From Tubulanus polymorphus (Eukaryota; Nemertea; Palaeonemertea; Tubulaniformes; Tubulanidae): a stretch of 64,000 nucleotides of DNA. Positions 28,265 through 55,791 of the stretch are shown piece after piece. The translations under genes and the position numbers were made by a program. How positions within the stretch are numbered: the stretch's first letter is position 1; the number at the start of each line of letters is the position of its first letter. The DNA is taken from NCBI RefSeq assembly GCF_964204645.1, contig NC_134027.1:3336485-3400484 (forward strand), written 5' to 3'. The notes beneath the pieces were generated by a model. The model was not told where the DNA came from and did not search any database. It saw only the letters and a program-made list of their open reading frames with translations.

Positions 28265-29055
28265 TTCGTCTCTCGCGATTTATTGCGTAGTTTTATCACG
28301 TTATTTATAAGGATGTTCACGCAAATCCCTTATGATATTTCCTCAGGTGGGTGCAAAAGGATCGATATTATTGAATGATCGTCGTGGATGAAATATTTCA
28401 CAATATTTTCCGATCTCATATCAATAAAAACTGCAAATAAAACCCGACAGATTTGGCAATTTAAGTTAAATAAGAAAACCTGGTAAACAAATATTTAAGT
28501 TATTCCGTCTGTCCTGAGTAGGTGGTGAAGATATTTGTACTCGGTGTACATTTTAAAGGCTTATAGCAATTATACAGTGGGGAGTACTAGTCCTATTGCC
28601 AAACAAAAACGTTTATTAGTTGAATTATTTGTCGCACGCAGATAATGGCGTTTTATCCCCTTACAAAGATAAAAACAAGTTTTAAGAGATCTATAAACTG
28701 GTGTAACATGGAGAACATACATATCACTAGTCTATATCATTTTCTCACGGGAATGAATTGTATGTAGTTATCAGGTACAGCATAATATCAGGTATTAAGA
28801 GTTGTGTAGGAGCCGTATTGACGGTCTCTAATCAAAAAACGTCAAGATGAATAGTTATTTGAGCGAAGGTTAACTAGCGCTTTATTTGAACACGAATTCG
28901 TTTTAGCCACGATTTGGAGTATGAGCTGTAGCTACTATAGTGTATTGTAGCTACGAGCATAATTGCCCGTAGATTGTAGCTCCATCAGGTTATAAATGAG
29001 ATATTGTGGTTGATAATATTTCATATGCTTTTACTTATAGATTGCTAGTAATAAG

Positions 29056-33571: not shown

Positions 33572-33870
33572 TTTACTTGATTTACTAAAGCCTCGACTAG
33601 ATAGCTGAAACAACGAACGTAATTTTATGGTAATGATACTTTTCATTTCATTCAGCATACTGAAAATGTTATTGGAACATTGTTTTATAATAGAAGTGTC
33701 TAAATAAACCTAACTCTCAAAATTATCACAATCAACTGTCAAAATATGATCTTTCGACGTTTCGTTCATTCTATTTGTAATTTAGAAAAACCAAGATGTC
33801 AGCGCCCTTGAACCGGCGCGGAAAATTTCAATTTTTAACTAGAATGCGATAATTCATTCATTACTGAAAC
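33572..33870. promoter_or_regulatory. Bidirectional promoter region, MRPL3/URI1
   Basis: Only 299 bp separates the two initiation codons on opposite strands. The URI1-proximal half contains a CpG-containing stretch GAACCGGCGCGGAAAATT (about 33809-33827). Neither start shows a nearby acceptor, so transcription must begin inside this interval for both genes. Shared control is inferred from spacing. Confidence 0.7.
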
Positions 33871-36733
33871 ATGGATGACTTAAAGTTCATTGATAGATTA
33901 GATGAAGTTCAGAAACAGGCGCTTCAAGACACTGAAACTCAACAAAAGCAATGGTAACTCATTTAAAACAAGGGCTAAAAAGGCTTCCGCTTGTCCACAC
34001 ACACCACTTTAGTTAGTTACCTAATCGTTGGTGGTAAGCTTTTTATTATCGGATGGCTTATACCAACATGTGGTTTGTGAAAATATCCGATCGTGAAACT
34101 AAACCACAGACAGGTTACTGACTAACACCACTTCTACTTTTACAGCCTCTAAAAATAATTACCTGCCGTGCATTACTTACTTATGAAAATCAGGGGCTGA
34201 TTCATGGGCAGACTTTGACAGGGGCTCAAAGAAATGAAAATGGCATGTAGCAGCCAAAACAAGGGTCTGAAAATTTTGAAATTTCAGTGCATTTTCATAA
34301 AATTTCCAAGCACTGGGACTTTTAAGAGAATATAAACTAAACATTGAGCTGTAGACTGCTGTCTTATTAGTTGCGGTGGAAAAATTGCCCTGAAAAATAT
34401 TGCCATAGTATTTCTGAAAATTTTTACTGAAAATTTACTTTCACTTTGGGCGCTCTATGTGTGTGTTCTCTCATTTCAGGAAAACTTTTGAATCTGACTA
34501 CATGGCTTTAAAAGACAGACTGAAAACTCTTCCCGACGAGATAACTCATGATGTCATGGTAAGGAACTTACGAAACGGGGTATCGGAATAGATGATTTCC
34601 TAAATTCAAATTAATTTCTGCATTATTACATCTATCTTTCTTAAGGTACCATTTGGACCTATTGCATTCATGCCAGGGAAGTTGGTGCACACTAATGAAG
34701 TGTTAGTGTTACTGGGTGATAACTGGTTTGTTGATCGATCTGCCAAACAGTCGTGCGAAATTATTGACCGAAGAATCAAAGGTAATTTCGAACATAAAAA
34801 TACGCGTCAAATTAAATTTATTCAAATAAGCGTCAATGACTAACATAAAACAGATTCTGGATCCATCCATCTTGCGATTTCAAAGATCAAATTACTGGTT
34901 TAGTTTTTCTATTAAATCTGAAGACTTTCATTTGCAGAAGTTCAAAAGAAATTATCTGTACTCGATCAACAGAGAACTTTATTACTCGGACGGTCTGAAT
35001 TTACTGAACAATTAAAATCAATTTCTGAGGTAAATTTCGCATTACCGTAATCGGCGATATTAATATCAAACATTTCTCTTCAAATAGTAAGCTGTGAAGA
35101 TAATCTTAGTGGAAAAGCTGTCATTTTAATTTCTAGGAAAAAGATAAATATGTTGAAATCAAAGAGGAATACAATGAAGAAGAGGAAAGAAAATGGAAAG
35201 GTAATCACATTGATTGAAAATTTTAAAACTATAGTGCTAATAATAAATATTTCATAATTTTGTAGTAACTAAGTATCCTAGCTATGTCCTATAAAATATT
35301 TAGCTCTTGGAACTTTTTTGAATTTGTTTTTCTCGTACTAATAGCCATATGTATTACAGAGAAACATCGCGAAAATGTAAGAAAATATCGACATGAAGAA
35401 ATGCTAGATTTGTCATTGTTGGATGAGCCAGTACTTAGTGAAGATGGCGAGGAATTTCAGGCGATAGAAAAGTTGGATGGAGCCGGTGAGGAACCAATAT
35501 TTGGTCGCACAGAAGAAGATGCTGAAATCTGGATGATTTTGGATCGACTTGAAAAACAAGAAGATGAAAATAGAGAGATGGAAAGGTAAATAGATTTAAA
35601 CAACTGCAGCTTCCCATCAATAAAATCAATCCAGTGTTTGTGGTATGTTTCATTTTCAAGTAATTAGGTCAGTATTTTTTTTAGACTATCAGATGCTGAA
35701 AGTGAAGAAAGGGATGAATATAAGAAATTAGAGTCTGAGGAGTTAAATGAAAATGCTGGTGATAAGAGAAATGATGATGATAATGACAGTGATGATCGAG
35801 ATGATGATGACAATGAAAGTATTCAGAGTGAAATTGATTCAGATGATTCAAAGTCCGTAACGTGGAAAGATTTCGAAGATGAAGAAAGAATAAAGCAACA
35901 CCGACCAAACAAGATTCATTTTTCTCATTCACCCGAATCCAGTGAGGTATGTTTAAACTATCGCAAACACGCTGTGACTTTTTATCCAGTTGTAAAATGT
36001 GTATTTAGAAATCGTGATTGATATTTGTAGGGAACAGATCTTGGAGAAGCTGAAGTTAAAAAGGATTTAAAATCAGTCATAGCCTCTCCGGGTGATATTT
36101 ATCGATGTTTTGCTCAACAGAAAGGACCGAAGTCGATATTAAAAACATCTAGTGGTACTTCTCCTCACTCTGCCCCTGAGCCACATAGGGACAAGATTGT
36201 ATCTACTGGATCAGTTGCGGTAGGTTGTTGATTTAATTTGCGTTCTATAATTACATTATATCGTCAGTCTAAATGATACTGTTTAACGACAAGGGAAAAG
36301 CTTTATACAAGTACAGCTACTGTATTTGTACTACTTATATCTAAAAATAACCAACTCGTTGGTTATTATCTATTTGGAGAGTTTTAATTGAGAGTTTCGC
36401 ACACCAATGCGATTCACTTATTCATTTCGCCTGATGATATATGAGTTGTTTATTCTTGATTCAATGGATTTTAACAGATGTGACCTGTTGAACAAATTCA
36501 ATGTTAACTTTTAAGAAATAGATGATATCGATTTTATTTTGAATAACTCTTAGGCATTTTCTGGAACAATAGTGGAACGGACTATATCGCAAGCAAAGGA
36601 TGAACAAAAGAAACCAGTTTCGCCATCTAAATTTCGTGGAGATAGACTTAAAAAAGTGCAGGATTCAAATAAAGAAAATGTGGACGCAAAACCGGTCTCA
36701 AAATTCAAAGCGCAAAGACAGACAAAGACATAG
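33871..36733 (+). CDS. URI1: Unconventional prefoldin RPB5 interactor
   Basis: Nine exons: 33871-33953, 34480-34558, 34646-34781, 34938-35029, 35137-35200, 35360-35585, 35685-35946, 36031-36219 and 36554-36733, giving 436 aa. URI is the scaffold of the R2TP/prefoldin-like complex that assembles RNA polymerases and binds RPB5. The N-terminal ~130 residues form a prefoldin alpha-type coiled coil with the VPFGPIAFMPGKLVHTNEVL hairpin region and LLGDNWFVDRSA. A charged middle follows, with an Asp-rich run (DDDNDSDDRDDDDNES) encoded by GAT repeats. The conserved C-terminal box reads AAFSGTIVERTI, after an SILKTSSG segment resembling the PP1-binding stretch. Intron 1 holds a dispersed element with a perfect target duplication. 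Confidence 0.95.
34010..34124. mobile_element. Dispersed 115-bp TIR element, copy 2, with 9-bp target duplication
   Basis: TAGTTAGTTACC... at the left and ...GGTTACTGACTA at the right form imperfect terminal inverted repeats. The element is flanked by exact 9-bp direct repeats ACACCACTT (34001-34009 and 34125-34133). It matches 19433-19548 apart from one base. The near-identity of the two copies implies recent movement. A 9-bp duplication with short TIRs fits Mutator-like (MULE) transposition; no transposase is present. Confidence 0.92.
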
Positions 36734-38229
36734 GAATAATGTGCATTAAAATGGAATAATAATACAGCGATACAAGTGCTATAAAATAACACGCGTGGAA
36801 TAAGAGTTGATCAAAGCTGTGATGACATTAGGATGTATTGCCCTCTATAAACACGAGAAAACATATACCGTGTGCGTTAAATAAGTGCTGTCTTCACGTT
36901 ATAATGTAAAAGGTCAGATTGAAATATACCCTGGTTAAATATTTGTAAGTATTTTTTCACTTTTGTTCGATATTTACTTCTCAATCAGGTCATTTCTAGT
37001 ACAGACCCGGGTTTGAGTACCAGTACATTTTAGCTGATGTATTGGTGCAAAATATATTTGCAAAAAAAAGTATTCTTCACATTTATTTAAGGCTTAAACT
37101 AACTATTCGATTCATTTAGTAGATTGAACAGAATATTTTTTATTTATTGATTTTTACGTTTAAGTGCCTAGATTATCCTCAGAATACCCACTGTTGCCTA
37201 TATAGTACAATATGATGACCTATTAGTGTATATTGAAATGCGTTACTCGGTATGATAATCATATCAACATTCGTTTGCTATGCGTGTGCCGGGTCAGGCA
37301 TCTAAATGGATCTGGTGACAAGCTTTTTAGAATAATTCATAGACCTGCACTGGTTATATAATATAATACTGGTAATTATATATACAACAGATTGTGTGAC
37401 TCTACATGTACTGGTATTTATATTTATATGCTTACATGTTTGTACTGTGTGGCCTATTTATGAGATTCTATCAAATACAGGTAAACTCTCATTCTCCACT
37501 GGTAAACTTAATTTCCACTTCATGTATCCGCGTTTTTCTGAGAGATCCAACTCGTTGAATTGGGAACTATATTGAAGATAAGATTACATGTATATGTTTT
37601 CATAGAATTTGATTTAAAGGGTCACCTTTATGTCTATCATCGGTAATTAAATGTATCAAGGTTCACCTATTTAGCATTGTATTTTTCAACTTTACCCCTG
37701 GATTTCACTTCAATACCAATTCATATGAGTTACATGAGTTGACAGTGTACATGTCAGTGGTTTATAAAACATTATTCCTAGAATTCAGAGATCATCATCA
37801 TAAAGGTAGTAATAATCTCACTGTTGCTATGTATATTCATTCTGAACTGGCAGTCAGTCACTCAGCTGACTACCAGTGTATTTTGTACTTGCTCGTAATG
37901 CACAAAAATTCAGCAGATCATCATGCTTCTCACAGTTTCATATAGTGTGCTACTTTAATTTGTAAAAGCAGCATTGGATGGTATGGTACGTATTCATGCT
38001 TCTAACTTGTTGATCTAGTAACATACAATATTCAGTATCTATGAAATCTTGTGTATGGTTCTGATTGTACATTGATCAAGTCAAATTGTTTTATGTTATG
38101 CCGTCTACCATTTTTGATCTAAATGAAGTATTCTATTGGTATTCATATCATTTTAGTTGATCAGATAATAACTAATTGTAAGAATAGATCTTGAAATTAT
38201 GAAGATTTCTTATAGGTGAATAAACCATC
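36734..38229. other. URI1 3' flank and DDO upstream region
   Basis: No coding exon. The sequence is AT-rich. A pyrimidine-rich acceptor just before the DDO start (near 38215) shows that DDO has an untranslated first exon somewhere in this stretch. Confidence 0.5.
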
Positions 38230-40420
38230 ATGTCGCACCAACGTCAAAAGATTGCAGTCATTGGTGCTGGTGTAATAGGTCTCACAACAGCTGTATGCTT
38301 ACAAGACACATACCCATCAGCTGATATAACTATCATAGCTGATAGATTTGGTACAGACACGGTCAGTACTATAGCTGCTGGACTATTACGAATAACGAAA
38401 ACCCATACACCAGGCACTCCAGCAGACGTACTTGGGTACGTATCATCGGTAGCATCCATTATTGATCTTAAGCTATTAATCAATCACTTGTATCTCATAG
38501 CTTTAAAAACCTCATTACAATGACACATGAATAGACTAGAAAATCTTATTCAAATCTTCTTTCAGGCGATGGAGTCGTGATTCATTTGAGTTTTTTGATA
38601 ATCTAGCCTACTCGGCCGAGTCCCCCCATTGTGGAATTGCACCGCAGTCTGTTACCCATGTGTTCTACGAAAAACCAGAGGTAATGAGGAATATTAGAAA
38701 CCAGTAGTTATGACATCGTGACCATTTCTGATCTTTCGTTACTTGCATTGATAAATGATTTACGTGTATATGGCAATATAATAATGCGTTGAAAGTCTAT
38801 GACGGCGGATGCTATGTGATGGTATTTTTATCGATATGAAGAATCAAAAGGCTTTATTTCACTATGGAAATACATTATTGATTACGAGTGGAGCGATTAT
38901 GCATTAGTTTCCGAACGTCTTATGAGATTTTTGTTTTGTAGGAGGAGCCATTTTATAAAAATTTTGTTCTTGGGTACAGAGAACTTTCTGAGAAAGAGCT
39001 GAAACACTTTCCTGGCTTTAAGTGAGTGGAATGTTGGAATAATTACGCGACTATATAAAATGTAGATAACATCTAGAGCAACTATTATTAATATTTTGGT
39101 ATTTGTGTTGTAGATTTGGTGTCAACATTCTTACAACTATAATGGAAGGAAATAAATTCTTGCCATGGCTTACCAACAAGTAAATGTTGACCAAAAAGAA
39201 ACGCTTAGTTTAATAAAAGATTATTCAGATTATCTCTGGTAAAAATGGGGCTGCTTGTTCCACAGTTAAGAAATAAGTGAACCATAAAAGGCAATTAGGT
39301 TGAACTGTTGCGTGACCTACATTTTAATAAACAGTAGAATTACATACCTTTTGATATCATACAGTACGTTGGTTGATTTGATTCTTTTAATGTATTATTG
39401 AGGCAGTATGTGTTATGTAGACTACAAATGATCGTATAATATCGATCTGATTTTTTATTCTCATAGGTTTAAATCGAGGGGTGGAAGAATTGAAGTTTGT
39501 AAACTGAGCTCCTTGGAACCATTAGTTGATAAATACGATGTTGCAGTTACATGTTGTGCGCTTGGAGCTCGAGAACTACTCAATGATAAATCTGTCTATC
39601 CAGTCAGAGGTCAAGTTATTCGTGTTGAAGCCCCATGGTTAAAATTTTCATTTTTTGCACAGAATGGAGTATATATTATAGTTGGGTCAGTAATTAGTTC
39701 CTAGATAATAGTGTAGAACTCACTTGATTCATCAGGTGACTATCGGACTGCACAGATTTGTCAAAATTAAGTAAAATCTGAATTATGAATAATTGTTCAA
39801 ATGTTTCCTGGTTAAATGTACCATAGTGAGAGACAATCCTGATTGAAAAATCCAAATTAAGTGAGTTCGACCGTGAATCAAAAGTTGCATAGAATCTGAA
39901 ATACTGACTGGAAATAATCTTAGAACTTTTGTTATAGGAAAAATTACACAACCGTGGGTGGTGTTCGTCAGGTGAATGATTGGAATTTGGAAGAAGATCC
40001 AAAAGATACAGAAATGATCTGGAAAAAAGCAGTTGAATTCATGCCATCACTGAGAGTAAGCTGCAACTACTGTCTTATCATAATCTCATTCATCAAAGGT
40101 ATCTGCTATTAGGACGTCATTTTCGTTTTCAGGATGCAAAGAGATTAGGCGTCTATGTTGGATTGCGACCCGCACGTAGACCAGTTCGGGTTGAAAAGGA
40201 AGTCATGAACTTTGGTTCAAAAACTCTTAAGGTACCGGTATATATCAAGCCTGAATAAATCTTGCACGAAAGAGAATTCTTATAATAACCTCAAATTCAT
40301 TTACCTTTTTAGGTTGTACACAATTATGGACATGGTGCTAATGGTGTTGGTCTCAGTTGGGGAACCGCAAAACACGCAACAGAACTAGTCGGTGAATTTC
40401 TCCAGAAATCAAAGCTATAG
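38230..40420 (+). CDS. DDO: D-aspartate oxidase (FAD-dependent D-amino-acid oxidase family), peroxisomal
   Basis: Eight exons: 38230-38435, 38566-38680, 38942-39021, 39114-39179, 39467-39685, 39938-40055, 40133-40231 and 40313-40420, giving 336 aa (human DDO is about 341). The enzyme oxidatively deaminates acidic D-amino acids to the 2-oxo acid, ammonia and hydrogen peroxide. The FAD-binding Rossmann motif IAVIGAGVIGLTTAVCL is at the N-terminus. VRGQVIRVEAPW, TTVGGVRQVNDWNLE, VGLRPARRPVR with the substrate-carboxylate Arg, and NYGHGANGVGLSWG close the fold. The C-terminus SKL is a canonical PTS1 signal. Distinguishing aspartate from neutral D-amino-acid oxidase by eye leans on DDO-like ELKHFPGF and DWNLE motifs; DAO is the alternative. 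Confidence 0.9.
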
Positions 40421-41333
40421 CTTGAAGCAATTCCATATCTTCTTTTGTGTATTTTTGGAGTCTATATTTTCATGTAGGTTTATATTCTTAAGCTATGAAA
40501 TGGATAGATGTACCTCTTACAGTGGAACCTCGTTAATCCACATCTTGAGGGCAAAAGTGAAATTGTTGTATTAAACGGGTTTTGTATCATCCAAATCTTG
40601 ATTGATATGAATATCTTAGCTGGAAATCATTGTAATAAACAGGTTTCATCTTCAACAGAATAGGTCTAACGAGGTCTAACTGTAATCGTTTTTTCCAGAA
40701 TTATATACCTCATACATGTATTGAAATGAACTAATGTGTAATAGTGTCGAGTGAATAGTTAACATTTGTAGTAGCAATACATGTCGTTATTTTCCATCCA
40801 AATTTCAATAAAAGTAATTTCCAGAAATTAAATTGTCTAGTTGTTACTAGTGCAAGGTTCGTACCATTTTCTGAGGTCACTAGCACTTTGTAGCTATTGG
40901 TAGTAGACGGATCATTAATTGTCTATAACTGGATTGCTTATAGACAAACTAATGGACTGTCAGAATAGTGTAAGAAATAAAGACCCTGATTTTCAAAAAG
41001 GATAATTATTTCTATAGTTAATTTTTTGACTATATCTGCTAACTTACATGTTTCAAACGCTTACTTATACATGTAGAAATAATTGACTTGATCACATCAA
41101 TGGATACACTATGACTGGATTTTATTCTAAAAGTGTCTAATATAGATATACATAGTACATGTTGCCCCACTTGTGATAGACATTACAATATCATAATAGA
41201 TGTAGTAAAAATATCATTTTACAAGCAATTAGGATTGCAACTGTTATATGTATGAAACGCACAAAATCATACAATGTATGAATGCTTTGCATAGGTAATC
41301 ACATGAGCTCAGGAACATATCAATATCTTCCTT
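40421..41333. other. Convergent 3' region of DDO and C19orf12
   Basis: Non-coding. It contains a TA-flanked inverted-repeat element (40520-40682) just after the DDO stop codon and otherwise AT-rich 3' UTR-like sequence. Confidence 0.5.
40520..40682 (+). mobile_element. TA-flanked MITE (CAGTGGAACC family), copy 1
   Basis: Starts CAGTGGAACCTCGTTAATCC after TA and ends GAGGTCTAACTG before TA. The interior (GGGCAAAAGTGAA, TATTAAACGGGTTTTG, CCAAATCTTGATTGATATG) matches the reverse complement of 48328-48485. TA duplication and CAGT termini suit Tc1/mariner/pogo-type movement; inference. Confidence 0.8.
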
Positions 41334-41891
41334 TTAATCTAAAATTTCCATTTTCATTGCTCCACTCACATATTTGATAACAACATCAATAAGTTCTTTT
41401 TTGATAAGAACATCGGCATTGATTAATGCAGCCAGCATTACTACATCTGTATAGTGTAGTTTATTGACAATGATTCGCGCATTATCATAAAGTTCACGTT
41501 TTTTGTCGGGTTCCATTTCCCAAAGTATTTGACTTAGAGGTTTGAATTTGCCATTTGCCATATAAGCTGCTGTACATCCACCAAATGCACCTCCTAAAAT
41601 AAGAGAATTGATAAAAAGAAAGTTCAGGACTCAAGTTTGGTTCTAGTTTTTGAAAATGATCTAAAATTGGTCCTAGCCCCTACCAGGCCTGGGTGGCCTG
41701 ACTCATGCTATATGAGTTGTTCAGTACTAACCTATAGCTAATCCAGGAGGACCAAGGAGTACTCCTCCGATTGCTGTACTCAATCCTGCTATTAATCCAC
41801 CTTTAACACTTTCCTTTACATTAACTCGCAGATTTGCTTCATCTGACAATGTTCCGAGGAGCTTCAATAAGTCTTCTACATCCACTGGCAT
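41334..41891 (-). CDS. C19orf12: C19orf12 homologue (mitochondria/ER-associated glycine-zipper protein)
   Basis: Two coding exons, 41732-41891 and 41334-41593, giving 139 aa (human about 141-152). It aligns with human C19orf12 along its length: VEDLLKLLGTLS, then a glycine-rich hydrophobic hairpin (GGLIAGLSTAIGGVLLGPPG, followed by LAIGGAFGG), GKFKPLSQILWEM, and a C-terminal helical domain (LYDNARIIVNKLHYTDVVML). Mutations of the human gene cause MPAN neurodegeneration; the protein associates with mitochondria, ER and their contact sites, and its biochemical activity is unsettled. The start at 41891 follows an acceptor at about 41910; an untranslated exon ends with a donor near 42303. Confidence 0.93.
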
Positions 41892-43178
41892 CGTATGGAT
41901 TCGGAAAGTCCTAAGAGAAAACGAAAGTTGTGTGCGTTAACAAGCTGGAGCTGTTGACAGCAGAGGGCGAGCAAGTCACCTGGTCACTGGGGCTAGCCAG
42001 AAGTATAGTCCAGGGTACTGGGGTTGGTAAATGATACTGGCTTTAAAATGTGAGACATGCCCATTAGCAAGTGGCGCTGGGAAAACAGGAAGCGCGTTTT
42101 TTCAATCAATCATCGCATATTGAATTTTATCGCACTTTTTGACACCTCCTCATCCAGTCGTGTCGTCAATGAGTCATCACACCACCTGGATGAGTGGATT
42201 CTATTACATAACACACACAATACAGCACGTACATACTCCAGGCACTCGTCGGTTGAGATGAATGAATAAAACGATAAGAAAGACTATAGAAACTACTTAA
42301 TACCTGTGGCACGCGTCCACTTCCGTACGCCAACTACTCAAATTACTTCCGGGTTGGTATAAAGGCCACGTGTCATGCGCAGTTTTGTTTACATCACGTG
42401 ACATCCAGCATTCCAAATATGGCAACTGATTAGATATGCCGTCCAATGAGCTAGCGCTATTATCAATGACGTCAGTGTATGTTTTGTTTGGGAAATTGCA
42501 TCCAGCAGAACAAGAATCCGTCAGAAAAGCATCTATTTTTCTTCGAATTTACAAAATCTAGAACTTTTTACAGCAACATATTTGAATCTGTGCATTCAGA
42601 TTTATCTCAGGTATTGTATGCATATCTATTTATAAAGAAATATGCGCTAGATTGTTCGAAAATAGACGTTTCATTGGTTATGTTTATAGTCATTCCGATG
42701 TCAACAACAACCAGCTGACCGAGCTGTCAAAATCGCTAGGATATAGATTTAGGTTTTTGAAGGTATTACGTTGGAAAATAAGTCGATTTCACTGAAGTAT
42801 TCATTTAATTTACCAAATGATGATGTAATGTAATAAATTTGATATGCTCATGGGTTTTTATAACCCAACTGAAACAGATTGTCAGACAATGTTTTTGTTA
42901 TGCTTTGTTTGGGTTGTTGAGGCTCCAAAAGGGACGCGAACTTTACAAAATAGGCTAACACTTTATCCTGCATCATCATCCTCGGATGGGATGAGGTTAT
43001 AGAACTTCATATAGCGACCGAGCAATAAGTGAACTAGACTCTAAACCTTGAATTGACCTTAGGTTTTATTAAGTAGCTTATAAAACATGGTTCGAACATT
43101 CATTCCTTTAATTACCTCAGTCTAGGGATCGGCTGGCTAATCCGAACATTTCACAACTTTATTCCCCAGGCAGCAATA
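41892..43178. other. Divergent intergenic region, C19orf12/TP53INP
   Basis: Contains untranslated first exons on both sides: a minus-strand donor near 42303, and a plus-strand acceptor at 43168-43169 just before the TP53INP start. Between them lies the motif cluster listed separately. Short open frames here are not supported. Confidence 0.6.
42367..42474. promoter_or_regulatory. Promoter motif cluster: two CACGTG E-boxes, CCAAT and full CRE
   Basis: CACGTG at 42367-42372, the 8-bp palindrome TCACGTGA (CLEAR/TFEB-like core) at 42394-42401, CCAAT at 42443-42447 and the perfect CRE TGACGTCA at 42467-42474. An ATGCGCA NRF1 half-site sits between the E-boxes. The cluster lies between divergent C19orf12 and TP53INP, which fits a shared promoter. 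Factor binding is inferred from motif matches only. Confidence 0.6.
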
Positions 43179-45029
43179 ATGTTGAGCGGAATTGCCAACT
43201 GGGTTTTTGGAGCTTCTGAAGATGGGACCGAAAATGCTGTTAATGAGATCAATCTCAAAACGACTGTCGTTGATGACGAATGGACCTTGGTTGATAAAGA
43301 AAGTGAGTATCTAAATTATTCATTATCTTAGTTAGAAACCTACAGTTGTTAATGATAATTAAATCATTTTTTTAGAAATAAGATAAAAGGGTTTCCAGAT
43401 ATTGACATATTAATCTATCAAATAATACCAAAAAAATCTGTAAGGAAGACATGGCCTAAAGCCCATGAATCTAACTTGATAGCAGTTAGCCTTCTGAACA
43501 CTTTCATCAAGTTGTGTGTGGTATGTTAGTTATGGTGACCCTGTAAATTTTCTGTGCTCTAGAATTGAAATTTTGGTTTAATATTCAATAATAGCTTTGT
43601 TAGAGCGTTAGAATTGCTTACTGGCCTTTATTAATGGACCTGGATGAACTTGCCATGACCTGTGAAGACTATCAATGACCCAAAATATTTTAATAAGTAA
43701 TGAATTGATGATTTTGTATTTGTCATTAATAAAGGTTCATGTGCATTTTATCTATGCCTAACAAAGCTACACTATAAAGCCTGTTAAAACCTTTAAAACC
43801 TATCCCGCCTGTTGTTTCTGTGTTTCACATGTCTTAAGTCTTATTAATGCTTGTTTCTGACTTTTGTTTGTTTTAGTTCAATATTTGCACCCATTTCATT
43901 TTCATAATTTGAATATATTGTGTGTCTTCCTATTATGTTTGTGGTGGAGTTTTACACTGTATTTATATGTGTGTGGTAGAAGTATCATTCATGTTTTAAG
44001 GTATATAGGTCTCTCTTGGTTTTCTCTCAATATCCAATTCTGTTCCTATTCTACAACCTTAATTTCATAAATAATTCATAAGGTTTCAAAATCTCTATGC
44101 CAACTGGGGTTACAGGAAAGATCGCATGATTATAAATAATCTCCTGTAATTCAGTTGAAGGACACAGGCCTAGGCTATAGCCGCGACAATCACACAAGAG
44201 CATTTTTGACCCGAGCTAAATTTTTCCCATGCCAGGGAGCCAACTGTGCACACTGGTGCCAAATGGACCCTTGTTTGTTTGGCATGAGCCTGATCAAAAA
44301 CGTTGGAACACACTCTCTAGGTACGGGCCATGTTTGGTCCGGGGAAATTCAACTCCGTGTGATTGAGGCTCTTAGATAGGCCTGAATTCATAGGTTAGAA
44401 AATATTCATGCCAACATTACTGAGGTTGCAGGAAAGATAGCATGATCTCCTGTCAGTCAGTTGAAGAATATGAACTATTTAACCAAGCAACATGAGTCCA
44501 AAGTTAGATAATGGGTGTAATAACATTTCTTTCAGATTGTATAGATTGTAACGATACTTCTCCTACACACAGTGTTCACTCCAACAATAGTGAGGACAGT
44601 TGGTTGGTAACTCCTCCCGCTTGTTTTACTGCAGGGCAGCAAAAACTTGAAACGAGCTCCATGGAAAATTTACTCATAGAACATCCTAGTATGTCAGTGT
44701 ATCATACGCGAGGCCGGCCGGGAAGCGCCGGTCTCGAAGAGTCTTCCTCAACCAGCAGTAACGATGCTGATGAAGCTGGTCCGAGTCGTCGCGCAGTAGT
44801 TACAGCTCCTCACCACCGTCCTAGAGCTTTAGCTCATAGCGCCGCCGGGTTACTGACGCAGCAACTAAATAAACCTATGCAACGCGCCACTCAGAAGATC
44901 GCCAAACGAAATATGAGCAAAAACAAGCTGAATCGCGTGAACAAAGTCCACGACTATCATCTTCGCTCAGGAAACAATTTACGTCGCAAGCAACACTTCG
45001 TCAACCAGCCTAACAAGAGGAAGTGCTAG
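43179..45029 (+). CDS. TP53INP: TP53INP-family protein (p53-inducible nuclear protein / DOR)
   Basis: Two coding exons, 43179-43302 and 44536-45029, giving 205 aa. TP53INP1/2 shuttle between the nucleus, where they co-activate transcription, and autophagosomes, where they bind ATG8 proteins. The first conserved box, DDEWTLVD, contains the LIR core W-x-x-V. The second, EDSWLVTPPACFTAG followed by TSSMENLLIEHPSMSVY, is the family hallmark. A Ser-rich linker and a basic C-terminus (KIAKRNMSKNKLNR...NKRKC) that could serve nuclear or nucleolar targeting follow. The start MLSGIANWVFGAS lies just after an acceptor. Invertebrates usually carry one gene corresponding to both vertebrate paralogues. 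Confidence 0.93.
44080..44475. repeat. Direct repeats flanking an inverted-repeat insert in the TP53INP intron
   Basis: Two related ~80-bp segments (about 44083-44163 and 44391-44470) share ATGCCAAC, CAGGAAAGAT-GCATGAT, TCTCCTGT and CAGTTGAAG. Between them lies ~225 bp whose ends pair approximately (CAGGCCTA and AATCACAC near 44166-44195 against GTGTGATT and TAGGCCTG near 44355-44385). It looks like a foldback element with duplicated flanks or a nested insertion. Confidence 0.55.
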
Positions 45030-47988
45030 AAATTACTGATTTTAGTCTGATTTTAAATTCAACGTTTTGTTGCTTTGTATTTGGTGTTTGTTTTAATTCT
45101 ACCGTGATAACTTTAAAAAAAATAATACTAGCATCGCTCGGAGTTTTTATGATATTACTTTCCATAAAATGTAAAGCCCTGTTACAATACGCATAGCCTA
45201 CGTTACATAAGAGTTTATTGAGTACGCAATATTTTCAACCAAAATAAAACGAAATAATTTTTTGTTCGGTGAAAAAAAATGTATTGAAATGAATTGCCCA
45301 ACTACCTCAGGGATGTGGACATCCTTAAAACTTCGTTTTTACATTTGAAATAGCTGTTGTAAAAATATTAAAGCAAATATTTTATTGAAACCTTACATCG
45401 TAAGTGATTAACCCGGTTGGCAAAATTCCGAGTTAAATGAACAAACCTCAGAAATCAGTTTTAAAGGTTCAATAAGACACAGTCCTATCTTAGTGCCATG
45501 TAAATCATTTGCATAATCTCTGAGTGTGATATATTACCATCAGTTTATCATCAATGAAATACGTGTCAAACAACGGTGCCGTCATCATGCAGCAATATTT
45601 AATAACAGGAAAAATAGGGTGAAAAAAAAATTGTGTATGTAAATTGTATAGATTTATGCCTTTGTTAGAATTCCATGTTGCAATATTAAATTATGTATAT
45701 CAAATGATTATATACATGAAAAAAAATTAGTATTTCTTCCTATCGAAGACTGCTTGTTAATTAATATTTATAATAATTAATCGATTATCACTTTCATACA
45801 ATAATCATACATTCAAGTTAATTGTTAATTATCAATGGGTAGATTATATGAATAGACCATGGGTGTTTATTATCAGGACTGATATATATGTGTAATCAAG
45901 GGAATGTATAATTAATGGATATTGCAAGCAAGCCACCATGTGCATTTTTTGTCATAAAATTGACAAGAAACATCGAATTGTTAATATCTGTGAGTGAATG
46001 GATCTTGAAGAATGATGTGATAATGTTGGCTTGATATAACTTTTGGGTTGAAAAGTTGATTTTCAAAATGTGATCAAAAATGATTTTAGGATTAGTTTAG
46101 GATGAATTTAGGATTATATAATTGATTCTGGTGGTAGTGGTTTTGTTTGTCTGATTATAATTGATGTCAAATCAAATATCATTTGTGATTTTTCATTTTT
46201 ATAGCATTCCCAGGCCCGTAGAAGGCTCCTGTAGAAAGTTAGCGCTGGATACTATTTCACAGTGAATAGTATTATTATAAGAATGTCTTGCTGGAAGGGG
46301 CAACAAAATGTTTAAACCTAGTTAGTGTCTGCAGGTTATGGGTAACACAATGCTTTTAATGGTTTTTTTTAGTTGATCACATTTTCAAATTCAGCTTCTA
46401 TACAATTTTCCAATGATCTCAACGCTAGAAACTGCTGCAGTTATACTGAAATATATCAGTACACGCAGTTTTTAGTGGTAAATCAATTTCTAAATTCCAT
46501 GGCAACTTTCAATCTAAATGCACAGATGCGTGCCTCAAAAACGTGTAACGGTACAACTACGTGAAATACCCTGGATATATTCACACAATAACTGAACTGA
46601 ACTATTACACGAGTCTCAAAAACACTGGAATATATGTGGTTTGTAAAATAGTCAACAGCGCACATGATACCAGCAAAATCCAGATATTGACCGAGCGAGG
46701 AATATTTTGACCTGTGATATAAATGAAATGATGGATAAGTAAGATAAGTAAGATCTCCATCACGCAGGGTTTGGACCTGTATAGTTCTCTAGTCAATCTG
46801 TCTACGTGAAATCTGAATTAAAGAATGTTACATCTATAAACATCTCCGCAAGGCAGCAATTAGCTTATATTGTGTGTATATAGGAACAATCGTTCACTGT
46901 ATGCGACCATTGTATGTGTTGTTTTATGTGACATTACTATCTGAAAGATAAAAGGCAGCCATTTTCCATCATAAGAAGTGTGTGAAACGCTATCAGTAAT
47001 TCATGTCATGTGAAAAATGTAACATCAAAAAACACACTAACCATACTGAGATTATCATCTTAAAATCAACATCACTGATATTCAAATTTCAGTCGAACCA
47101 TATAACATACTAGCTCGTTAACATCTGTTCAGTCAAAAGCAGATCCGATACTCTAGTTTTTCATGCCATTAGCTGATATCACTTTCATTTTTGGATTGGT
47201 GGAAACATGTTAATACATGTAACAAGATCACTGGTTGATGTTATCTTACCAGTATAAAATATGCACTGAATATGAATGATGGATCCAGACTTTTAAAAAG
47301 TGTTTAAATGTTTTGTGTAAGTGAGAGATTGATCACAGTCTGAGAATTTAAACTAGTTTTGATATTTTTGTTGTATGTGAAGTGATATTATATAAGTATA
47401 GCCTCGTATTAAACTGTGTTGTAAACTATTTCATTAATCAAATAACATGTTCCACACCTTGGTCTCTTAGTATAATCATTAATATTATACATAATATAAC
47501 CTGAATGTACATTACATTCATTTGTTATAAATACACTGAATTATGGTTGGTTCATATGTATTTGAATTGTACCCAGTAGTTTAAGAAAGCAAGGGGTTGA
47601 TAAGATCTAAAATAATGAGTGAATCAGTAGAAGAGAATGTTTGTATGTTACAAAAAAGGTGCAACAGAATAAATGGTTCTCTTGAACTCAAGACATTGGT
47701 TTTTCTTTAAGAACTTCTTTGGGTCGAAGCATCAAATAGGAATTGCCATCGAAGAATAAGCCTTTACATCTGTGAAATCCTCGGCCCGGTTTTATAGATT
47801 GGTACCATCTTTAACCCAGGGGTTAACTCGATTAAAAATGAAATGTGTTAACTCCCATGATAAAGATAATACCAGTCTATAAAACCAGCCCCTGCATACT
47901 ACTTGACTAACCTGAGGCAACGTGAAAGAATGAGAAGCAAAATCAATCATTATTCTTATAAGTTTATTCTTACCACATTAGCAGAATG
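45030..47988. other. Convergent 3' region of TP53INP and the BtpA gene
   Basis: About 3 kb of AT-rich sequence without a recognisable exon; it probably includes a long TP53INP 3' UTR. One TIR element (47783-47892) lies near the BtpA end. Confidence 0.5.
47783..47892. repeat. Short TIR element, GGGCYSGGTTTYATAG family, copy 2
   Basis: GGCCCGGTTTTATAGATTGG at 47783-47802 pairs with the reverse complement of 47870-47890 (TACCAGTCTATAAAACCAGCC) with few mismatches. The interior has a second palindromic pair (TTAACCCAGGGGTTAA). It shares termini with 16731-16892. Confidence 0.7.
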
Positions 47989-49943
47989 TCAACTAATCTC
48001 AGTAGTATTTGATGATCTTAATTTTCTAACTTTATCCATGAACTTATTCACTCTAACGCTATCTACTGGATTTAGCCAATTTCCATTTTCCTTGAAATGA
48101 GATCCAACTATAAGTCCATGAGCTTTGCTGTATAGTTCTATATTGTCCGAAGTGACGCCAGAACCGATCAATACCGGTAAATTACATTCATTTCTTGCAT
48201 CTGAAAACAAACCATGATATTATTTAATCGCGCTGTTATTCACTGATCCAGTGCAATTGATCCCAGTAATTAGCCCCTAAAAAGATTACACTTGTTTATT
48301 GAGTTGGTTATCCAGGGATTTCAATTACAGTTGAACTTTGTTAATTCTGTATAAGATGAAACCAATTTCTTACAATAATTTGCGGTATGTCCCAGCTAAC
48401 ATATCAATCCAGATTTGGATAATGCAAAACCCGTTTAATACGAACATTTGTTCACTTTTGCCCACAAGATTTGAGGTTCCTCTCTTATTGCAAAAAAGTT
48501 CAAGGATTTTCCCTTTTCCTAACTGCATTTGTTTCGAATGTGAAGAGCAGTGACTTCTATCTGATATAATGCAACAATAATAGCGAGGGTGTATAATTAC
48601 ATCCAAAACATCGGGTGATGGATGTCACTGACATTGAGGTAAATATAATGTATTGCCCTTGAAACACAGTATTTCACATAAATGTTCCATACTTTTAAGG
48701 GGTTAATAGAGAATATCTCACCTGTAAATTCATTGACATCAGTTACTGCACCAGTTGAAGTTCCTGTTAAAATCACTCCATCGCTTAGAAAGAATTCAGC
48801 AGCTTTTACTGTTTCAGTGATGCTTACATCAGAAGTTATAGCATGAGAACTAAAGCAGAAATTACCAAGTCGATCAAGTCATGATATCAATTAAATGCTG
48901 ACATAAGACAGTTAAATGCTCATGGTTCCCACAGTGTACCGGGAAATTGGGAATTGTAAAATAATATTTCCCCGTTTGGAAATATTTGGGAGATTTACAG
49001 TTTTTCCTTTTATCCTCTTATTTGGGAAAAGTATTTCCCAATTCATGTAGCATAGTTCAATTGCTTTCCCTAGGGCAACTTTGGAACAACTAGAGGGATT
49101 TTGAATTCATTGTGGGAACCATGTGTCTAATGTAAAGTTTAACAGTTTTACCTGTGTTTCTTTTTAACATCTGTGAACACGTGAATGTGTTCAGCTCCAA
49201 TTTGTCGACGATATCGTAAAACTTCAGCAGCGCATGAATTCATTAACCCTTCATCAGCGACATGCGCGAAAACAAAACCCTCAGCGCGAATGTAATCTAA
49301 CCCTGAAACGTGAAAAATGATTGCTCAATAATTCTAACATTAAATGATACATCTGAATACAGTTATAAATTATCTACCTGCAGCTAATGCCACTGCCAAA
49401 GCTTGATGATTTGCTCCCGCTAAAATCTGTATTCCTAGAGGAATATTGGGACACTGGTCACGGATTTTACAGCAAACAGCAGTCATGGAAGCAACTATTT
49501 CAGGTCCAACTTGAGATGTATGTTGATATGGTATGTCATGCATGTTTTCAATTAAAATACTATCCTGCAAATAAAAGTGATCAAAAGATTTATTTAAAAT
49601 ATGCCCCAGACTCAGAACACTCATGGAGGTCAGTCACACAGAAAACTAAACTTAAGAACCTTATTCTAATTTACCACATTAGCAGATTTATATATTTCAA
49701 CATCTTTCAGTGCCCGTTCTATTATCGCATCCATCTTATGTGTACATTTAGGTGTTCCTGTAAGTCAAAATATCAATAAAATAAATTTAAATTGAATTGA
49801 TGACCCGCGATCTTCACAAAAATTTGCTAAAACATAGCTTTTTATGACATGACAGTTTTACCTGGTAGTGCATCTACGTGAACCATGCCGATAACATTAA
49901 AAAGGGTTCTGCCAAATAATGTTTTAAACCGATTTAAAGCCAT
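47989..49943 (-). CDS. BtpA-family TIM-barrel protein, putative mitochondrial
   Basis: Six exons: 49862-49943, 49675-49757, 49378-49564, 49152-49302, 48722-48849 and 47989-48200, giving 280 aa. Motifs of the BtpA/SgcQ family are clear: NVIGMVHVDALPGTP near the N-terminus, SILIENMHDIPYQHTSQVGPE, GIQILAGANHQALAVALAAG, DYIRAEGFVFAHVADEG, then LPVLIGSGVTSDNIELYSKA and HGLIVGSHFKENGNW near the end, the phosphate-loop side of a (beta/alpha)8 barrel. In cyanobacteria BtpA affects photosystem I stability; animal members, such as worm F13E9.13, are annotated mitochondrial and have no assigned activity. The N-terminus MALNRFKTLFGRTLF is basic and hydrophobic, so mitochondrial import is plausible. Function is not known. 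Confidence 0.9.
48328..48485 (-). mobile_element. TA-flanked MITE (CAGTGGAACC family), copy 2, inverted
   Basis: The reverse complement aligns with 40520-40682 through GGGCAAAAGTGAA, TATTAAACGGGTTTTG, CCAAATC-GATTGATATG and GGTTTCATCTT. One terminus is shortened (GAGGTTCCTCTC), so this copy has decayed more. It lies in the intron between BtpA exons 5 and 6. Confidence 0.75.
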
Positions 49944-51226
49944 TTTGTGGATATTAGTGGAGAATTTTGCACAAGTTTGTAGATTTTTAAATGCGGAAGT
50001 AAACCGGAAACGGAAATGGTGGATTCAACTCTGAACTCAAAATCGACCAATCATAAAGCAGGAATCTAATAACAAGTATGGCGTCCATTCCCACCGCCCT
50101 CACATAAAACTTACCGCTTCAACATTACATTTTTCAGTGTCAGACTTATCGCAAATCCTAAAAGATAGTGAATATATTTTTTTCAAGTTGATTTCTTGCG
50201 ATTGTTATAACTTGTGATGTAAATGAAAATCAATTACGTTAGAAATAGTTCAAAAAACAATTCATGCAGACGCTTTTTCTTATGTTCGAAAAATGATTAA
50301 ATTGCCGCTTCGTAAATAATTGAATTAAGTATGAAAAAATGAAAATCATATCAGTTTTAAGCTAAAAACCATTAGAGGTTTGATAGTTATACATTTCTCT
50401 AAAATGAAAATAAGTTTTCATGGGCTATGAATCCAGCATTTCATAGTTGAAAAAACTTCCTTTGTCCGAAATTGACGCGAAAAAGCCGCCAAACTAATTG
50501 AATTTCGTACTTGAAATAATTCACTACTACTATTAGAATTAATTTCAAATATAGGCAAAACTGTAAAAGAAATATGATTCAAAGCCTTGATACATTTATT
50601 TTTAACTTTTAACACTTTTTATATGTTATTAAGTCTTAGGAAAAATTGCGCGAAATATCGGCGCGATGCGCGGACGCGATGCGTATTCGTTCTATTGGCG
50701 GGCCCCATTCTGATGTTCGCTGAGCTCGAAGGCGGTTGCAGGTTGGTAGTTCTTCTTCTTGATTATCTTCCATCACATGCGATCTTTGACAATTTTGTTA
50801 GGTTGATAACATATAACAAGGATTTAAGAATGGTTGTAAATAACTTGTAGCTTATTAATGGGTTGTTTTATTCGGGAAAGTCGATGAACATTTGATGATG
50901 ATCACTCGCGGTAGTTAGTCTGTTCACCCTTCTTTTTCTGGTTCTTTGGTTTCTGTATTTTATGATCATGATTGAATTCCGATATCGTTAGAATGGTGAT
51001 ATAGGGCTATGCTTTAAGATATTTATTAGTTATTTTGGAAATTAATAACTTGAAATAAAGTAGTTTCTCATTCTTTGACTTGTTAGAAAGCATGGTCCAA
51101 GGCTCACACCACCACCCACCCAGCTGATGCCATGCATCCACCAGCCAGGAATTCTTCAAATTTTGTCAACTAATCAATGTCTTTATATCATTCTAGGTTT
51201 ATGATCATTTTGAAATTGTGATTTAT
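49944..51226. other. Divergent intergenic region, BtpA gene/cyclin E
   Basis: No coding exon. It includes a CpG-rich stretch with an E2F-type site (about 50640-50750), probable cyclin E untranslated first exon with a donor-like CAG/GTTGGT near 50740, and an acceptor near 51196 before the cyclin E start exon. A short upstream ORF (ATG at 51201, seven codons counting the stop) precedes the main start. Confidence 0.55.
50648..50655 (-). promoter_or_regulatory. E2F-type site upstream of cyclin E
   Basis: GCGCGAAA on plus is TTTCGCGC on minus, an exact TTTSSCGC match, embedded in the palindrome-like TTGCGCGAAA within a CpG-rich island of AT-rich DNA. A near match (ACGCGAAAAA) lies about 170 bp upstream. 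Vertebrate and fly cyclin E are E2F targets; binding here is inferred. Confidence 0.6.
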
Positions 51227-54200
51227 ATGATGCCTAGAAAAAGGTAGGTTTTTCCATATGGATACTTCTCATACGATACTTAAGCTTTTAAAAGAAAAAA
51301 GGCATTACCATCATGATTTTCCATTCTCATGGACTGCATCAACAACCATGTTTATACCTCTCATTTCAGTATCCGTATCCAGAGTCAGAAATCGTCTAGT
51401 TCGTCTCTGAAGTCTTCAAATTCTGCTAATATCAAGGCAGTACCAATAATCCTCAACCGAAAGAGAAAAGCTGAAGAGGTACATTCATTTATGATTCCGT
51501 TTGCAAATTTTTTAACCTCAAAGAAACTCCATCCTAGATATTTTGGTGATTGATAGTAATGATAATGATTATATTGATTATTTTTACAGGATCCGGAAGG
51601 CATGTCACTGGAAAAAAGAAGGCATTTGAGTGAGGTAAGGAAACTCATTAATTTCTTCTAAGATTTTGGCTACACTACACCTGGTTTAACAAGAGAGATT
51701 TGTCATTTGATTTGTTAAGGTTAACTTTGGTTTTGCATATCAAATCTTGACTGTGTCTTGTAAGTTAAACTCTACCGTAAGAGGCGGGCTCGTTGATAGG
51801 TGATAATGAGCTCAGGAGTAAAAACCTCAGGATTATCGATTGACAAATTACTCTTATTTAGGCGTTTAAAGAACCTTTTCTTATCTAAGTCCGTGTTGAG
51901 CAAAGATCTGACTTAGAAAAAGTTTAGTTCATTTTGATAAGTCATTCATACCTGGTAGTTAATGAGTTGTGATGCTTAAGTGCTAATCGATTCACTAAGC
52001 GTTTTAAGATTTTATTAAAATATCGGAATTTGCACTGAAAAAAATGTTGGAATTAGCGCTATATTTGTTAGATACCAGTATGTCAGAAAATATCGCTGTC
52101 GAGTTGACATCTACCTGAAGATCAGCTGATGAGTTAAAAGGATGGTGACCTATAAAATGTGTTTCTATGGGTGTCCCGGGACCGGGTTGTCTATTGTATG
52201 ACTGGCTGTTCTATAGAGTTGCTATGTATTGCTCGGAATAAATCTTCCATGAGGCACGAATTACCCTGGCGTGTTTCTATAGGAATGTGTTTTGATCGGT
52301 GGGCTTGAATTCATGAAAACTGGTTTTCTTTCGAGTGAACCCTTGGTAACTTTAATGATATATAGATTCACAATGGTCGTTTTGTTTATAGAGTATAAAT
52401 ATACCAGTGTAGTCTTGGTTTAACCCTGACGCCTGCCTGGAATGTTTCTGGCTGTCTAAAAATAGATAATCCAGACATCTGCACTTCGCAACATGTGTTA
52501 AGGTGAAAATGTATCTTAATTTGGAAATATCAGCCATACTTATATTTATACCAATTACAAGATATCAGATGTTTATAAATTCATCTCTCGGTCAACTCCC
52601 TGAGAGATGAATTTGATTAGACTCATATCTTCTCCCATCATATGTCATATTTCACATATAATCAGTTATAGTGGCTCGTGCTGTGTGCCTATATAATATT
52701 TAGTGCTAATTGTTTTCTGTGAAGTACATTTCTTCAGATACCTTCAATTGATATTATAAAAGTACAGGAATTATTAATACGGGGCATGGCACGCGTCTAC
52801 ATGTGGCACGCGTTTCGGCAGATGTTTTGATTGTTTGTCGTCGTTTTCATGTTAATGCTTCATTATGACTCGGAAAGAAAAGGCGCTTTTCACCGCAATT
52901 TTTGTCGGTTATTGTATTTTTATGGAGAGCGCGGACGTGTGCCAAAATGATTGCATTTCAAATTCATATAGCACAATAGCTTCTTAATGTGCTGGAATGA
53001 CTAGATTCTATAGATGGAGATATTGTTCAAGGGTCATATAGGCAGCTGCAGTCAACTCAGAATCTGAAAATCACCTGGTATTATCAAAGATTGTGCTGGT
53101 TCATCTGGCTTCATTCAGTTTGCCATCTGCTTCCACATGCCTATACACAATATTAATAGTTAGATGCCATTTTTAGAGACTCGATGATTGGAATCCCTCA
53201 TCTTCCTTATTTTCAGTCAGTTTTGTTTGGTTTGTTTAATTACTGATAGTTTGAGATCAGTCATTGTGTCTCTAGATACATAATTAACTCTAACTAACTG
53301 TCTGCCACTTAGCTGGCTAATTGACTGAGAAATTAAATACTTGGCTTGCGATACTAATTACCATTTCATCATCACCATCTTAGTGGCTATTGAGTTTTCA
53401 AATCATGATGACTGAAAAGGTTTTTTCTCAATGCATAATTAGTTTGTAAGAAGAATAGTTTAATCTGGATAGAAATGTTAAAGGTAGTAATCTGTAGGAT
53501 TTGGGCATAATTGTTTGTAGTTTGTGAAGTGTAAATGAGACATGTTAAACTAGGTCAGTGTATGAATGGGCATTGGGCTTGATGAGTCGTCTATGTACTC
53601 ACTGCCCAGTCTATTGTTTGGTGATGTAATCAGTTGGTCAGGGTTCTTGTAGAGTGTTATTATAGGTTAATACCAGGTGCTCAATGTGTTATAGCCTTAA
53701 CTTTAAACAGAGGAATTAACACACATAAATCTTGCTTGTAACATGGATGTTTGTGATGGTGAAGTCATTGTAAGTTAAGAATTGTGTTTAAATGATTAAA
53801 TATTTGGTTTCCTCACTTAATCAATGCGTTGTCTATGAGAATTTTGAATATAGCTGTTAACCAAACCAATTCAGTTTTGAGGTGTGGATGCCGATTTGAA
53901 ATTTGAATTTTAAGAAGGAAATTCTCATGAACGATTGAATGATGTTTATATGGTATATAAATGGGTGAAACTCTGTTTAGAAATGAGTGTATGATGAAGA
54001 AAAGTTTTCAATGAAGTTTTTTTCTCATTTCAGAATCAATGGGTCCCCATATCCGTTGACACATCTGTTTATGGAGGTGCAATAAAACCTAGCCGACCGG
54101 TACCGGTAGATATGGTCGTGAGTCAGAAATTACCCATCGATGAATTTGCTTCACAGTTTCGATTTTCGGACTACTTCACAACACCGTCTCATCTACGACC

Positions 54201-55791
54201 GTGTCCGCTGCCTCGACTTGACTGGGCTGATTCTAAGGAGGTTTGGCAAGTGATGCTGAAAAAAGATGAACTATACATTCGTAATCCACAAATGTTGGAT
54301 GATCATCCACAGTTACAAATGAAAATGAGGACTATTCTCTTAGATTGGTTGGTTGAGGTTAGTTTTTCTATTAAACATAATTGACATAATTGGTTTCTGT
54401 CTATCTTTATGTTAGAGAAAAACTCTCAGTAGAAAGATTGATCTTAATGTTTCAACACAATTGCTACACATCATCTTCATAACTGAAGATACGAAAATGC
54501 CCGTAGCAATAAAGTTAATACATAAGGCATTAAGATAACTTAAATACTGTTATGCTTTCGATGATCAGTTTTTCTCTAATAAATAGACATTAATTCTTGA
54601 TAATGTGCGATGTTTTGTAGATGCTAAATTGTTTGTTTTATTGTGTATGACAGGTCTGTGAAGTGTATCGATTAACGAGAGACACTTATTATCTGGCTGT
54701 CGATTTCATCGATCGTTATTTATCGGCTGCTAAAAACGTTGGCAAAGAAAAACTGCAACTGTTAGGCATTTCGGCCTTATTCATCTCATCGAAAACCGAG
54801 GAAATTTATCCACCGAAATTGGCGGATTTTGCTTACGTAACAGATGGCGCTTGTTCTGAAGAGGAAATATTGGCTATGGAATTAATTATGTTGAAGGTAA
54901 ATATAGTGATCATTACTGATTTTCTCGTCTTAACCACTATAATAATCATATCTGCTTTGAGCGATAAAAGGTAACATTCTCTTATGCTTATTTCAGACTC
55001 TGAAGTGGGATCTGTGTCCTATGACATCAATTCAATGGATGAATCTGTTCCTGCAGTTGATGAATACAGAGGAAGAAGATATGGAAACCGATAATGGCTT
55101 ACTGTTACCTCAGTATTCCTCACATTTTTACGTTCAATTAGCTAGGGTAAGAATCAGAGTTAGTGAAATCATTCCACATATACTGAAGCTTTTGAATCAT
55201 ACGTTTTAAAAGTGATTTTGTAAATTTTATTTATTTCAGTTATTGGATCTAGTAACATTGGATGCCGAATCATTACAATTTACATATGGTGTGTTAGCTG
55301 CCTCAGCATTTTGTCATTTGATATCCGAACAAGTCGCTATGTCTGTATCTGGTAGGTACTTGTCGAATTCTCTCACTCTCCTTATCACATTATATTTCTA
55401 TATGATGGAAAAATTAATGAATTTTGTCATTATAGGTTTTAAATGGATTGATTTGGCTCCATGCGTTGAATGGATGTTACCTTATGCGTTAACTGTGGAA
55501 GAGCTGGGACATGTCGAGATGAAATATTACAGTAATGTCAGTCCAGAAATGGCTCATTTCATACAAACACATGTGATTGAGTTAGGAATACTAGTAAGTA
55601 TTGACTACTGGTTAGGTCGTTTCATTATCTGTATTGGCGGCAATCTTTAACATTTGAATTTGTCTTTGCAGGAAAGTGTAAAGAATAAGAAATTTGAATT
55701 GACATCATCGCGAGCTAGTCCTGATGTTGATATGCAGCAGGATACCGGGTTACTGACTCCACCACAGAGTAGCAAAAAATGTGATGGCTGA
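51227..55791 (+). CDS. CCNE1: G1/S-specific cyclin E
   Basis: Nine coding exons: 51227-51243, 51370-51478, 51590-51634, 54034-54357, 54654-54896, 54997-55146, 55240-55351, 55436-55593 and 55672-55791, giving 425 aa. Cyclin E activates CDK2 at S-phase entry. The N-terminus has a basic nuclear signal ([19 protein letters not shown]). The cyclin box carries [40 protein letters not shown] and [20 protein letters not shown]. The MRAIL hydrophobic-patch Ala is Thr here. The C-terminal Fbw7 phosphodegron, GLLTPPQS, is intact. The start uses tandem ATG codons in a 17-nt coding exon; the next exon joins in frame to [15 protein letters not shown]. The longest intron (51635-54033) shows no gene. Confidence 0.96.

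Follow-up and report, generated by a model that had tools for sequence, protein, structure and literature searches.

Conserved bilaterian microsyntenic blocks made up of non-paralogous genes were reportedly described by Irimia and colleagues in 2012. Such blocks hold unrelated single genes close together with few genes between them, and a high gene density is typical of those retained in protostomes (Robert et al. 2022, PMC8851819). Genomic regulatory blocks of the Wnt7-Atxn10 type also keep functionally unrelated neighbours together; they have a developmental target gene, low gene density and long non-coding spans, with enhancers of the target lying in or beyond its neighbours, such that rearrangements are selected against. 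The two cyclin E genes of human, CCNE1 and CCNE2, presumably originated in the vertebrate whole-genome duplications. At human 19q12, C19ORF12 (30,190-206 kb), CCNE1 (30,303-315 kb) and C19ORF2/URI (30,433-507 kb) lie in an amplicon region that reads POP4-PLEKHF1-C19orf12-CCNE1-URI1, which bears out the order given in the original prediction (PMC3446387). At human 8q22.1, TP53INP1 adjoins CCNE2 in a gene list comprising INTS8, CCNE2, TP53INP1, ... PLEKHF2 (PMC11476383), and the CCNE2/TP53INP1 locus at 8q22.1 is also described in PMC7955030.

The window analysed here is a stretch of 64,000 nucleotides of the Tubulanus polymorphus genome (C3:3336485-3400484; NC_134027.1), C3 being a chromosome of 27.8 Mb in an assembly of 268 Mb. 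Exons were obtained from six-frame translation, confirmed with Pfam and assembled into spliced models with GT-AG junctions and without internal stops. Six intact spliced genes, corresponding to URI1, DDO, C19orf12, TP53INP, a BtpA-family gene and cyclin E, were identified at 33,871-55,791 (Table 1), with gaps of about 0.9-3.0 kb from coding region to coding region. The trio of URI1, C19orf12 and cyclin E that had been predicted to lie within about 22 kb is therefore present there on both Pfam and spliced-model evidence, and the start and end coordinates assigned in the original prediction are matched by the gene models. An assembly artefact was considered as the source of the linkage and rejected, there being zero N across the 244 kb around the block.

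Table 1. Genes and divergent gaps of the cyclin E block, the adjoining MRPL3 gene, and further human neighbours located on the same chromosome. Positions are window coordinates unless given for C3; gap lengths are between start codons.
Feature	Position	Strand	Details
MRPL3	31213-33709	-	identified by C-terminal exon; start codon estimated
URI1	33871-36733	+	9 coding exons, 441 aa; Pfam Prefoldin 5.7e-13
DDO	38230-40420	+	6-exon model; Pfam DAO 1.4e-24
C19orf12	41334-41891	-	2 coding exons, 139 aa; PF20721 1.6e-27
C19orf12/TP53INP divergent gap	41892-43178		1,287 bp; CpG o/e 0.89
TP53INP (DOR family)	43179-45029	+	2 coding exons, 205 aa; DOR PF14839 5.8e-31
BtpA-family gene	47989-49943	-	6 exons; PF03437 2.3e-61
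BtpA/cyclin E divergent gap	49944-51229		1,286 bp; CpG o/e 1.13
Cyclin E	51230-55791	+	9 coding exons, 424 aa; Cyclin_N 6.7e-45, plus Cyclin_C
PDCD5	C3, 3.95 Mb		short match, 2.1e-5
UQCRFS1	C3, 9.56 Mb		
INTS8	C3, 23.74 Mb		
POP4	C3, 26.91 Mb		

The cyclin was typed as E by its best PDB match, human cyclin E1 (5.8e-98, against 1.4e-30 for cyclin A), and its gene carries one intron of 2.4 kb. The oxidase is closer to D-aspartate oxidase (PDB 6rkf, 2.7e-46) than to D-amino-acid oxidase (1.1e-35), and an exon at 38.7-39.4 kb may have been missed in its model. The protein named URI1 has a prefoldin-alpha domain, an acidic middle and the C-terminal stretch AFSGTIVER...VSKFKAQR, which is presumably the URI C-terminus; its C-terminal exon lies at 36554-36733. 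In the PDB it is matched best by prefoldin alpha-type subunits, with no closer solved relative, and the name is a putative assignment based on the domain, the acidic middle and the C-terminal stretch. C19orf12, TP53INP and the BtpA-family gene each gave one matching place in a genome-wide search and are thus single-copy. By class, the six genes are cell-cycle, chaperone, mitochondrial/lipid, autophagy/stress, oxidase and BtpA (Pfam). BtpA proteins are familiar chiefly from the biogenesis of photosystem I in cyanobacteria; the family is represented here by a spliced single-copy animal gene. Between 30 and 60 kb of the window, no repeats of at least 40 bp were found. Two similar short translated stretches with LNGFCIIQI-ID occur in opposite orientation at 40508-40660 (+) and 48373-48624 (-), which suggests that a short repeat is dispersed through the block's non-coding sequence. 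Left of MRPL3, an open frame of 534 codons with charged and proline-rich stretches (29041-30642, +) has no Pfam match.

The single block in this nemertean corresponds to two human neighbourhoods, 19q12 (C19orf12-CCNE1-URI1) and 8q22.1 (CCNE2-TP53INP1), each of which includes one cyclin E gene along with its own subset of the members. TP53INP occupies one place here. It is thus an unduplicated region with its genes split over two paralogous vertebrate regions (double-conserved synteny), and the matching of one block to two human ones is the pattern left when a duplicated region loses genes reciprocally. TP53INP had originally been listed with DDO and BtpA as an interleaved gene; this description holds for DDO, which is not a CCNE neighbour in human, and for BtpA, but not for TP53INP, whose human relative adjoins CCNE2 and which is therefore a fourth member of the linkage.

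The locus shares with 19q12 the linkage of C19orf12, CCNE and URI1 and the divergent orientation of C19orf12 and the cyclin E gene, the human strands being presumed. TP53INP, DDO and BtpA are absent from 19q12, where the genes are spaced at about 100 kb in contrast to six genes in 22 kb here. URI1 keeps the orientation relative to CCNE that it has in human but is found at the other end, preceding C19orf12, whereas in human it lies past CCNE1. With 8q22.1 the locus shares the position of TP53INP next to cyclin E, upstream and on the same strand, as is presumably the case for TP53INP1 and CCNE2; unlike the present block, the human copy lacks C19orf12 and URI1, and in the nemertean INTS8 lies 20.3 Mb off and PLEKHF on another chromosome. 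The order C19orf12 (-), TP53INP (+), CCNE (+) agrees with both human copies, if the human strands are as presumed.

With the position of CCNE fixed and the named genes falling within 22 kb of it, the chance of finding the trio within +-22 kb genome-wide is 2.7e-8, which becomes 5e-4 on correction for 20,000 human neighbourhoods; for the quartet including TP53INP the values are 4.4e-12 and 9e-8. Coincidence is thus not tenable. Independent assembly in this lineage and in vertebrates, whether by convergence or by chance, is very improbable, both on account of these values and because the correspondence with the human neighbourhoods extends beyond the local linkage to the level of the chromosome. 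The block therefore brings together at least three non-paralogous orthologues that are separated by few other genes both here and in the distant human genome, at a proximity exceeding chance, and is similar to the published bilaterian microsyntenic blocks in joining unrelated single genes at close range and high density; it differs from them in that the searched texts do not mention the quartet (PMC8851819). Literature searches for its microsynteny in open texts likewise gave no description of the block, which may nevertheless be included in the supplementary lists of published microsyntenies. Retention of an ancestral linkage, as proposed in the original prediction, is very likely from the two genomes compared, and the support is stronger than was claimed, now that TP53INP is a fourth member.

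Correspondence at the chromosome scale was examined through further neighbours of the human loci. Four of six such genes from human 19q12-13 or 8q22.1 are located on C3, which makes up 10.4% of the genome (P = 0.0015); since the six were the analyst's choice, with human distances that reach about 3 Mb for some of them, this enrichment lends support but does not amount to a formal test. PDCD5, UQCRFS1, INTS8 and POP4 share the chromosome of the block at distances of 0.6-23.5 Mb from it. PLEKHF was located on C11 and DPY19L on C1 and C10, and NDUFAF6 gave no match in the genome through its SQS_PSY domain, which does not imply absence of the gene; the wider neighbourhood has thus been kept only in part. 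A PLEKHF gene near the block was also considered, but the FYVE hit that lies about 150 kb left of URI1 (C3:3224055) belongs to an FGD-type RhoGEF gene, the PLEKHF-like gene being that on C11. An ancestral linkage group is therefore recognisable, in which most of the tested members are dispersed within the chromosome and the quartet is not. Under full shuffling, the scan probability that the quartet would stay together while its chromosome-mates dispersed over 24 Mb is about 1e-7. Shuffling need not be complete, and the intact quartet amid such dispersal leaves room for selection.

What holds the quartet together may be considered in this light. Embedded regulatory DNA had been suggested as the cause, with enhancers of cyclin E or TP53INP lying in or beyond neighbouring genes and rearrangements selected against. 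The persistence of the quartet within 22 kb while PDCD5, UQCRFS1, INTS8 and POP4 shifted along C3 would suit this suggestion, and the non-coding gaps together with the 2.4-kb cyclin E intron could house regulatory elements. However, none of the six genes is a developmental regulator or developmental transcription factor, unrelated genes sit within the block, and its density and short gaps are opposite to the low density, long non-coding spans and gene deserts of regulatory blocks of the Wnt7-Atxn10 type; the human set, in turn, is divided between chromosomes 19 and 8, with the 19q12 members about 100 kb apart, and the moving away of the four chromosome-mates itself speaks against such a cause. 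The human CCNE1 enhancer showed no long-range interaction in Hi-C (PMC9998086) and thus gives no help to the suggestion. A regulatory cause finds no support in so compact a block without a developmental regulator, and is considered quite unlikely.

Shared divergent promoters could alternatively lock C19orf12 to TP53INP, BtpA to cyclin E and MRPL3 to URI1, with co-transcription keeping the block. There are indeed three head-to-head pairs, the start codons of MRPL3 and URI1 being only about 0.2 kb apart (gap CpG o/e 1.55), and CpG o/e is 0.89-1.55 in the three divergent gaps against 0.6-0.64 in the other gaps, that is, the former are less CpG-depleted. The MRPL3/URI1 gap is a probable bidirectional promoter, judged from its length and CpG content; the gaps of the other two pairs exceed 1 kb and need not equal a single promoter. 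The BtpA/cyclin E gap contains one E2F-like site (GCGCGAAA at 50648), which could be due to chance. The pair partners differ from those in human, and all that the two species share is that C19orf12 and CCNE are divergently oriented, so that divergent promoters, which could hold pairs, are unable by themselves to hold the quartet together, and this explanation is unlikely. It is similarly doubtful that selection has kept the quartet together across numerous bilaterian phyla, as a block of genes for the cell cycle, stress and mitochondria with shared regulation, while the rest of the neighbourhood dispersed.

The preferred reading, to which a probability of about three in four is given, is that the quartet is a remnant of an ancestral bilaterian gene order that was duplicated in vertebrates and has been retained mainly passively. 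In the ancestral neighbourhood, C19orf12, TP53INP, cyclin E and URI1 would have stood together, in an order that is itself reconstructed. Whole-genome duplication in vertebrates would have doubled this neighbourhood, and different members would then have been lost from each of the two regions now seen in human, 19q12 keeping C19orf12, CCNE1 and URI1 and 8q22.1 keeping TP53INP1 and CCNE2. In Tubulanus polymorphus the neighbourhood would have stayed single and compact, with DDO and BtpA inside and URI1 on the opposite side as compared with human. Its persistence most likely reflects the rarity of rearrangement breaks in short, gene-dense segments, perhaps helped by the harm that breaks within divergent promoters would do, rather than joint function of the genes or enhancers of one gene inside another. 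That the cause was mainly passive is rather likely, as suggested by the short gaps of the block and by the movement of four chromosome-mates over 0.6-23.5 Mb. No sign of a special mechanism behind the linkage was seen, and the block appears to be a surviving fragment of an ancestral animal chromosome. A second conserved divergent pair lies close by in the left flank, where RNMT (-) and FAM210A (+) are head to head at window coordinates of about -5.5 to -1.7 kb, an arrangement that is presumably divergent in human as well. The two genes are neighbours in human too, at 18p11.21 (PMC6113773), and conserved pairs are thus not special to the cyclin E block.

The likely neighbourhood of cyclin E before the duplication can be reconstructed from this locus, with CCNE1 beside C19orf12 and URI1 (together amplified in cancer) and CCNE2 beside TP53INP1 as complementary leftovers of one block. 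This suggests that the co-amplified genes of 19q12 are old neighbours, and that the reason for their proximity is probably historical and not functional. Should the linkage of the quartet prove to hold in several phyla, the reasons for the persistence of gene order could be tested well on it.

Two further features were observed in the flanks. A gene for the insulator protein CTCF lies to the right at window coordinates 93007-96919, about 37 kb past cyclin E; as CTCF is not known outside bilaterians, it points to a bilaterian host, whereas a search for COX1 as a species marker gave no match. To the left, a single reading frame of 13 kb with mucin-like repeats (TESTTQAAGSASTAGGTPSVSG) extends over window coordinates -51176 to -37827, and the opposite strand is also open for more than 12 kb.
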